This document shows positions 2,641 to 54,445 of a stretch of 64,000 nt of DNA, piece by piece. The DNA is taken from the NCBI RefSeq assembly GCF_000174355.1, contig NZ_ACIS01000001.1:434001-498000 (forward strand), in the 5' to 3' direction. This stretch comes from Pseudogulbenkiania ferrooxidans 2002. Its GTDB lineage: Bacteria; Pseudomonadota; Gammaproteobacteria; Burkholderiales; Chromobacteriaceae. Each line of letters begins with the position of its first letter. Position 1 is the stretch's first letter. Both the position numbers and the translations under genes were made by a program. The notes under the pieces are model-generated. The model was not told where the DNA came from. It did no database searches and was given only the letters and a program-made list of their open reading frames with translations.

Positions 2641-3225
2641 ATGAGTGAGCAACACGTCGATGCGGGGCGCCGTCGTTTCCTGACGGTAGCAACCAGCGCG
2701 GTTGGTGGTGTGGCGGTAGCCGGGGTGGCAACGCCGTTTCTGATGAGTTTCTTCCCGTCCGAGAGGGCCAAGGCTGCCGGTGCGCCGGTCGAGGTCGAGA
2801 TCGGCAAGCTGGAGCCGGGCCAGAAGATCAACGTCGAATGGCGCGGTAAGCCGGTGTGGGTGTTGTCGCGTACTCCGGAGATGGTGAAGAACCTCGCCAA
2901 GAACGACGACAAGCTGGTCGATCCCAAGTCGGAAGTCGAGCAGCAGCCGGAATACTGCAAGAACGAATACCGTTCGATCAAGCCGGAACTCTTGGTGGCG
3001 GTGGGCATCTGTACCCACCTGGGCTGTTCGCCGACGTTCCGTCCCGACCTCGCTCCGGCCGACCTCGGCCCGGAATGGCTTGGCGGTTTCTATTGCCCCT
3101 GTCATGGCTCGAAGTTCGACCTGGCGGCACGGGTTTTCAAAGGGGTGCCGGCACCGAAGAACCTGGAAATCCCGCCGCACAAGTATCTGTCCGATAGCCG
3201 CCTATTGATTGGCGCCGACAAATAA
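2641..3225 (+). CDS. petA: Ubiquinol-cytochrome c reductase, Rieske iron-sulfur subunit
   Basis: This subunit of the cytochrome bc1 complex passes electrons from ubiquinol to cytochrome c1. A twin-arginine signal (GRRRF at residues 9-13) with a hydrophobic anchor precedes the soluble domain. The 2Fe-2S cluster motifs CTHLGC (124-129) and CPCHGS (152-157) are intact. I chose the ATG at 2641 because GAGGA lies eight bases before it; an upstream ATG at 2632 and a TTG at 2626 are also open. At 194 residues it has the usual length. It is the first gene of petABC, and petB follows after 14 bases. Confidence 0.97.
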   Translation: MSEQHVDAGRRRFLTVATSAVGGVAVAGVATPFLMSFFPSERAKAAGAPVEVEIGKLEPGQKINVEWRGKPVWVLSRTPEMVKNLAKNDDKLVDPKSEVEQQPEYCKNEYRSIKPELLVAVGICTHLGCSPTFRPDLAPADLGPEWLGGFYCPCHGSKFDLAARVFKGVPAPKNLEIPPHKYLSDSRLLIGADK

Positions 3226-3239
3226 GCTGAGGGCGAAAA

Positions 3240-4559
3240 ATGAGCAAAGGACAAAGCATCCTGAACTGGATCGACGAGCGCTTCCCGCTGTCATCCACCA
3301 TGAAGGCGCACATCACCGAGTACTACGCGCCCAAGAACTTCAACTTCTGGTACTTCTTCGGCAGCCTGGCGATGCTGGTACTGGTGATCCAGATCGTCAC
3401 CGGCATCTTCCTCACCATGAACTACAAGCCGGATGCCGCGACGGCCTTCCTGTCCGTCGAGTACATCATGCGCGACGTGGCCGGGGGCTGGATCATCCGT
3501 TACATGCACTCCACCGGCGCCTCGATGTTCTTCATCGTGGTCTATCTGCACATGTTCCGCGGCCTGATCTACGGTTCGTACAAGCAGCCGCGTGAACTGA
3601 TCTGGGTGTTCGGCACCTTGATCTTCCTGTGCCTGATGGCCGAAGCCTTCATGGGTTACCTGCTGCCGTGGGGCCAGATGTCGTTCTGGGGCGCCCAGGT
3701 GATCGTGAACCTGTTCGGTTCGATCCCGGTCATTGGCCCGGATCTGTCGGTATGGATCCGTGGTGACTACGTGGTGTCCGACGCCACCCTGAACCGCTTC
3801 TTCGCGCTGCATGTAATCGCGGTTCCGCTGGTGCTGCTGGCACTGGTGGTGGCCCACCTGGTGGCGCTGCACGAAGTGGGTTCCAACAACCCCGATGGCG
3901 TCGAAATCAAGAAGAACAAGGACCCGAAGACCGGCATTCCGCTCGACGGCATCCCGTTCCACCCGTACTACACCGTCAAGGATGTACTGGGCGTTGCCGT
4001 GTTCCTGATCGTGTTCTCGGCCATCGTGTTCTTCATGCCGGAAATGGGTGGCTTCTTCCTCGAGCACCCGAACTTCGACCCGGCCGACCCGCTGAAGACC
4101 CCGCCGCACATCGCACCGGTATGGTACTTCACGCCGTTCTACGCCATTCTGCGCGCCATTCCGTCCTTCCTGGGCACCCAGGTGTGGGGTGTGCTGGGCA
4201 TGGGGGCGGCCGTGGTGCTGATCGCCTTCCTGCCGTGGCTGGACAAATCGCCGGTGAAATCGATCCGCTACCGCGGTCCGAAGTTCAAGTTCATGCTGGT
4301 CCTGTTCATCATCGCCTTTATCGGCCTGGGTATCCTGGGGGCCATGCCGTCCACCAATACCCGCACCGTGATTGCCCAGATCCTGTCTGCGATCTACTTC
4401 GCCTTCTTCCTGGGCATGCCGATCTATACCAAGAACGATGTCGGCAGTGAGCCGGTTCCGAGCCGCGTGACCGAGACCAACGCCAAGCGCCAGCTGCGCT
4501 TCCTGGTGCTGGTTGCCGTCACCGTGGTCGGTGCAGCGCTGTTTGCCATGAACGTGTAA
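3240..4559 (+). CDS. petB: Ubiquinol-cytochrome c reductase, cytochrome b subunit
   Basis: This is the membrane core of the bc1 complex, holding the two b hemes and the Qo and Qi quinone sites. The 439-residue protein has the expected multi-helix pattern. It shows the PVWY motif of the Qo site (seen as APVWYFTPFYAIL), the paired-histidine region MHSTGASMFF...YLHMFRG, and a second heme-ligand helix containing FALHVIAVP...AHLVALH. It is about the length seen in proteobacteria, with a C-terminal extra helix. The second gene of petABC, it is separated from petA by 14 bases and from petC by about 17. Confidence 0.98.
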   Translation: MSKGQSILNWIDERFPLSSTMKAHITEYYAPKNFNFWYFFGSLAMLVLVIQIVTGIFLTMNYKPDAATAFLSVEYIMRDVAGGWIIRYMHSTGASMFFIVVYLHMFRGLIYGSYKQPRELIWVFGTLIFLCLMAEAFMGYLLPWGQMSFWGAQVIVNLFGSIPVIGPDLSVWIRGDYVVSDATLNRFFALHVIAVPLVLLALVVAHLVALHEVGSNNPDGVEIKKNKDPKTGIPLDGIPFHPYYTVKDVLGVAVFLIVFSAIVFFMPEMGGFFLEHPNFDPADPLKTPPHIAPVWYFTPFYAILRAIPSFLGTQVWGVLGMGAAVVLIAFLPWLDKSPVKSIRYRGPKFKFMLVLFIIAFIGLGILGAMPSTNTRTVIAQILSAIYFAFFLGMPIYTKNDVGSEPVPSRVTETNAKRQLRFLVLVAVTVVGAALFAMNV

Positions 4560-54145: not shown

Positions 54146-54179
54146 ATGGCCCCGGAATTGATCCGGGGCCATTTTTTTC
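54146..54179 (+). terminator. Terminator after the flavin reductase
   Basis: Stem ATGGCCCCGG / CCGGGGCCAT with a seven-base loop and seven T. Confidence 0.92.
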
Positions 54180-54215: not shown

Positions 54216-54256
54216 TTGACCTACGTCAATTCCCGACATTCTGTCATGGGTATGAT
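54216..54256 (+). promoter_or_regulatory. Class II FNR-type promoter of the DUF3149 gene
   Basis: An FNR-family site, TTGAC-CTAC-GTCAA (54216-54229), has both TTGA/TCAA core halves. A -10 box TATGAT lies at 54251-54256. With a start near 54263-54264, the site is centred at about -41.5, the exact class II position for oxygen-responsive activators. Confidence 0.8.
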
Positions 54257-54307
54257 GGTTGGCAGTCAAAGTCATCAAGGCGAGCTCAGCCGCCACAGGA
54301 GGGCAAA

Positions 54308-54445
54308 ATGGAACTCTGGAAACAACTGTTATCCGACGACGTCGGGCTCTTGAGCCTGATCACCATCGTGGTCGCCAGCCTTGTCGTGGGCGTTTGCGTG
54401 ACGCTGTTCATCCGCAATGTGAAGAACGAGTCGCGCAAGCACTGA
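54308..54445 (+). CDS. DUF3149 small membrane protein
   Basis: A 45-residue protein: short acidic N-terminus (MELWKQLLSDDVG), one transmembrane helix (about 14-36) and a basic C-terminal tail (VKNESRKH). It matches the DUF3149 family of small betaproteobacterial membrane proteins with unknown function. An AGGAGGG site at 54297-54303 supports translation. A class II FNR-type promoter upstream and its own terminator downstream make it a single-gene transcript, probably switched on when oxygen is low. Confidence 0.85.
   Translation: MELWKQLLSDDVGLLSLITIVVASLVVGVCVTLFIRNVKNESRKH

Follow-up and report, generated by a model that had tools for sequence, protein, structure and literature searches.

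DUF3149, a single-helix microprotein under a conserved FNR-type promoter, and its likely tie to cbb3-type cytochrome c oxidase

The cbb3 oxidases serve respiration at very low oxygen in many bacteria. Small single-helix subunits of another terminal oxidase, cytochrome bd, were long overlooked, with CydX and YnhF as examples. YnhF is mentioned in PMC9264385. On the cbb3 side, CcoM is a 36-residue subunit of the Pseudomonas stutzeri enzyme, described in PMC10433244 as essential when cells adapt to low oxygen, and the transmembrane helix of CcoH has been given a tentative place within an engineered cbb3 supercomplex (PMC7876108). A literature search, whose reach into subscription papers was slight, returned no mention of DUF3149 or PF11346 and nothing relevant on FNR-controlled small cbb3 proteins. 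The DUF3149 gene described here is best read, with moderate confidence, as encoding an oxygen-controlled, single-helix, CcoM-like subunit of the cbb3 oxidase under FNR.

The DUF3149 locus and its product

The window, that is, the whole 64-kb stretch of Pseudogulbenkiania ferrooxidans 2002 DNA that was analysed, holds one short gene whose product belongs to the Pfam family PF11346 (53.4 bits against a cut-off of 23.2). The gene and its surroundings comprise the following elements:

54146..54172, forward strand: upstream intrinsic terminator, an 11-pair stem and then a T run, which ends a Fer2/FAD/NAD reductase gene
54216..54229, forward strand: predicted FNR box TTGACCTACGTCAA, centre 54222.5 (about -41.5), kept in 52/52 loci of the family
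54251..54256, forward strand: predicted -10 element TATGAT, its spacing kept across the 52 family loci
54297..54303, forward strand: probable ribosome-binding site AGGAGGG, read from the sequence
54308..54445, forward strand: DUF3149 gene, 45 aa (PF11346, 1.9e-14), with a predicted single long helix
54500..54522, forward strand: intrinsic terminator 3' of the DUF3149 gene, a 10-pair stem with a T run

The TATGAT hexamer would put the transcription start near 54264, and the centre of the box would therefore lie at -41.5. With terminators on both sides the DUF3149 gene stands as a one-gene unit, between the reductase gene upstream and a convergent, apt-like phosphoribosyltransferase gene downstream. 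No plain sigma-70 promoter was found before the gene by a consensus scan, as expected if the promoter is activator-dependent. These elements agree with the earlier note on this DNA, which had described TTGACCTACGTCAA about 41.5 bases before the start with a TATGAT -10 box, followed by a lone DUF3149 microprotein gene between terminators.

In the AlphaFold model the protein is one helix spanning residues 3-44, with a mean pLDDT of 96 at residues 21-30. Of 115 distinct relatives, 104 carry more positive charge towards the C-terminus than towards the N-terminus, a bias from which the N-terminus is probably outside and the C-terminus inside. The most conserved residues are Gly13 (99%) and Ser16 and Leu7 (95% each), with Thr/Val19 and Ile/Val20 as further conserved positions; these would resemble a helix-packing face, and a catalytic or metal site less. 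A profile search of the PDB with DUF3149 gave chance helix matches only, with no match to 5djq; NCBIfam has no model for the family, and a search of plasmid records returned no match. The closest relative of the locus is found in Pseudogulbenkiania subflava (98% of residues), and the named relatives belong to Pseudogulbenkiania, Gulbenkiania, Vogesella, Crenobacter, Paludibacterium and Aquitalea.

An FNR-type box and its probable regulator

With up to one mismatch allowed, TTGACCTACGTCAA is the sole match to TTGACN4GTCAA in the window, where 1.38 such matches (one-mismatch ones included) are expected by chance in 64 kb, and taken alone it is insignificant. What gives the box significance is the excess of such sites across the genome, together with their conservation among relatives. 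The whole genome contains 31 TTGAYN4RTCAA sites against five for the reversed control pattern, and some regulator therefore uses this motif. In the family Chromobacteriaceae, DUF3149 was found in 51 of 61 genomes, and all 52 of its genes carry a perfect TTGAYN4RTCAA box 58-138 nt upstream of the start; the remainder of all loci has a background of 0.033 boxes per 300 nt. Genera differ in the four central bases of the family boxes and in the flanks. The earlier note had proposed looking for the site upstream of DUF3149 in relatives, and the 52 family loci give a clear positive answer.

The spacing points in the same direction. Counted from the start of the box, the family loci show a -10-like hexamer at offset 35, with a mean of 4.02 matches out of six to TATAAT, while elsewhere among the tested offsets (30-41) the mean is at most 2.85, and the distance corresponds to what would be class II spacing. 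In the same genome, the ccoN promoter has TTGATCCAAATCAA and a TATAAT hexamer at an offset identical to that of the DUF3149 promoter. The TTGA-N6-TCAA site near -41.5, counted from the predicted start of transcription, and its matching -10 element thus have the layout of the class II FNR promoter claimed in the earlier note, a claim strengthened by the box, the offset and the conservation across the family. Conserved control of DUF3149 by an FNR-type regulator appears very likely from this pattern.

A suitable regulator is encoded in the genome. The gene at 2721-3476 of locus L135 matches the NCBIfam Fnr model NF008365 with 250.5 bits against a cut-off of 228, and its product has a Cys-x2-Cys-x5-Cys motif near the N-terminus, clustered cysteines of this kind being those of the oxygen-sensing FNR of E. 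coli. Immediately 5' of this fnr gene (L135:2653-2691) lie two FNR boxes, 25 bp apart, which suggests autoregulation. Elsewhere in the genome, where reading-frame calls near FNR-like sites are rough and clear cases only were used, the box TTGACCTGTATCAA (L002:1501-1514) occurs 40 nt upstream of a gene for DUF465, another small protein of an uncharacterised family. A separate arrangement was seen in one genus (g3, presumably Chromobacterium), where ten loci (L042-L045, L075-L077, L089, L091, L133) have a second FNR-like box upstream of the DUF3149 box, the two lying exactly 32 bp, or three helix turns, apart.

Linkage to the cco operon and to oxidase genes

A comparison of about 145 relatives links DUF3149 to the cbb3 oxidase. 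Order-level (Burkholderiales) loci were drawn from 200 genomes, and 65 loci lie outside the family: 19 with a perfect box of their own, 17 following ccoH without a box and 29 with neither. For family and order together, 71 loci have the box alone, 17 have ccoH alone, none has both and 29 have neither, so that own box and ccoH linkage are mutually exclusive. In the 17 ccoH-linked loci DUF3149 lies 30-91 nt 3' of a FixH/CcoH match on the same strand, and none of the 17 has its own perfect box. Sixteen larger regions show the order ccoN-ccoO-ccoP-ccoG-ccoH-DUF3149, with ccoI adjoining in most, according to Pfam labels on representatives (the ccoG match being missing in one region). Ten of these regions have a perfect box before ccoN, and three more have one with a single mismatch before ccoN or ccoI, making 13 of 16. 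In the order, DUF3149 closes a cco operon in seven families or more; in the wider class, two loci (L187, L191) carry it between ccoP and ccoG. That class was sampled at 28 loci, of which, besides these two, 23 have an upstream box, perfect or with one mismatch, at 70-130 nt. Some of the 29 loci with neither feature have a one-mismatch box or an adjoining ccoI. A DUF3149 subgroup with the motif MLxxLFGSxxGIxS (L095, L106, L110, L111, L119, L121-L123, L125, L127, L128) shows neither perfect box nor ccoH linkage, and its host genomes mostly have a cbb3 oxidase.

The operon position could also fit a factor that acts transiently in cbb3 assembly or copper delivery, similar to CcoH/CcoS and absent from the finished enzyme, since the usual place of DUF3149 is directly after ccoG and ccoH, which are assembly or maturation genes, and single-helix cbb3 assembly factors are known (PMC7876108). 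Relatives of DUF3149, however, have no conserved metal-binding motif, the top positions being the Gly, Ser and Leu residues given above, and the tentative placement of CcoH in the supercomplex (PMC7876108) blurs the line between factor and subunit. We regard an assembly factor as rather unlikely, and lean moderately towards a CcoM-like subunit instead.

Co-occurrence provides evidence separate from operon linkage. FixO/CcoO is present in 43 of 45 DUF3149 genomes against 197 of 369 overall in the class sample (Fisher P 8e-11), and in 68 of 71 against 143 of 200 in the order sample (P 1e-9), with P values that are too small because kinship is ignored and related genomes are not independent. The five DUF3149 genomes without cbb3 have weak or fragmentary DUF3149 matches or are incomplete, so the protein occurs essentially only where the oxidase does. 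In the order, 75 of 143 cbb3-bearing genomes yielded no DUF3149 match, that is, about half, and the protein is therefore not universally needed.

Cytochrome bd was weighed as a partner and was found weaker than cbb3 by co-occurrence. A service to this enzyme, or to terminal oxidases generally, of the kind given by CydX or YnhF, would suit the Vogesella loci, where DUF3149 lies 139-220 nt 3' of cydB (L022-L025, L027, L028, L030, L033, L035, L036, L038), and the weak co-occurrence with cydA, found in 53 of 71 DUF3149 genomes of the order against 121 of 200 overall (P 0.0025, likewise too small for the kinship of the genomes). Against it, DUF3149 is present in 3 of 39 genomes with bd and without cbb3 and in 18 of 61 with cbb3 and without bd; cydB adjoins it in Vogesella only, and there it keeps its own promoter with an FNR box. 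A bd-directed role is thus very improbable.

Other neighbours vary as well: an arcD-like amino-acid permease gene lies 3' of DUF3149 in several other genera of the family, and in two other families a dCache/PAS sensor gene adjoins it (L051, L059, L100, L109, L116, L120, L126). These neighbours could suit an anaerobic stress or signalling peptide with no oxidase tie, whose FNR box would mark mere low-oxygen expression, but this idea, which takes in the stress peptide suggested in the earlier note, finds little support and is scarcely credible given that DUF3149 ends cco operons across seven or more families of the order, sits inside them in the wider class, and nearly depends on the presence of cbb3. 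The alternative offered in the same note, an accessory to a terminal oxidase, gains from that operon position and from the co-occurrence, and a role of DUF3149 with the cbb3 oxidase specifically is likely on these genomic grounds.

Proposed role and comparison with CcoM and other small oxidase proteins

In the model favoured here, a CcoM-like subunit under FNR, a fall in oxygen would allow FNR to keep its iron-sulfur cluster and to bind the 54216-54229 box as a class II activator, switching on the one-gene DUF3149 transcript. The product, a predicted 45-residue inner-membrane protein with one helix, would then become a small subunit that stabilises the cbb3-type cytochrome c oxidase, while the cco operon would be expressed simultaneously from the same promoter type. 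In the family, the gene may have moved out of the cco operon or may never have been part of it, and its own FNR box would keep it in step.

This reading would give a so far uncharacterised domain a testable place in a major respiratory enzyme, and cbb3 structures, which come from few model genera, may lack a small subunit that is in use in many relatives. It would also make function predictable from genome sequence by a simple rule: a place in the cco operon or an FNR box of its own.

The known small oxidase proteins resemble DUF3149 to different degrees. CydX and YnhF are alike by description, though they serve the bd oxidase and DUF3149 tracks cbb3 more closely in its distribution. CcoH/FixH (PF05751), encoded directly upstream of DUF3149 in the cco-linked loci, is larger (~170 aa) and of another Pfam family, and accompanies DUF3149 instead of standing in for it. 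CcoM, like DUF3149, is a one-helix inner-membrane microprotein tied to the cbb3 oxidase, and its layout is similar too: a ccoM relative in genome G415 has an FNR/Anr-type box, TTGACATCGGTCAA, 81 nt upstream of the start. Its distribution is narrow, with one of 369 class genomes against 45 of 369 for DUF3149. Homology between the two was considered with the CcoM sequence recovered from PDB 5djq chain N and rejected, since CcoM scores 5.7 bits against the DUF3149 profile and 151 of 1000 helix-preserving CcoM shuffles do as well; a gapless alignment that looked tempting was dropped because the shuffles equal it. DUF3149 would therefore seem to work like CcoM, while identity with CcoM fails the homology test. 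More tentatively, DUF3149 may be the standard, so far unrecognised small cbb3 subunit across much of Gammaproteobacteria (in the GTDB sense, including Burkholderiales), its gene entering and leaving the cco operon while staying under FNR, and CcoM may be a form of it that has diverged strongly or a replacement with a narrow distribution.
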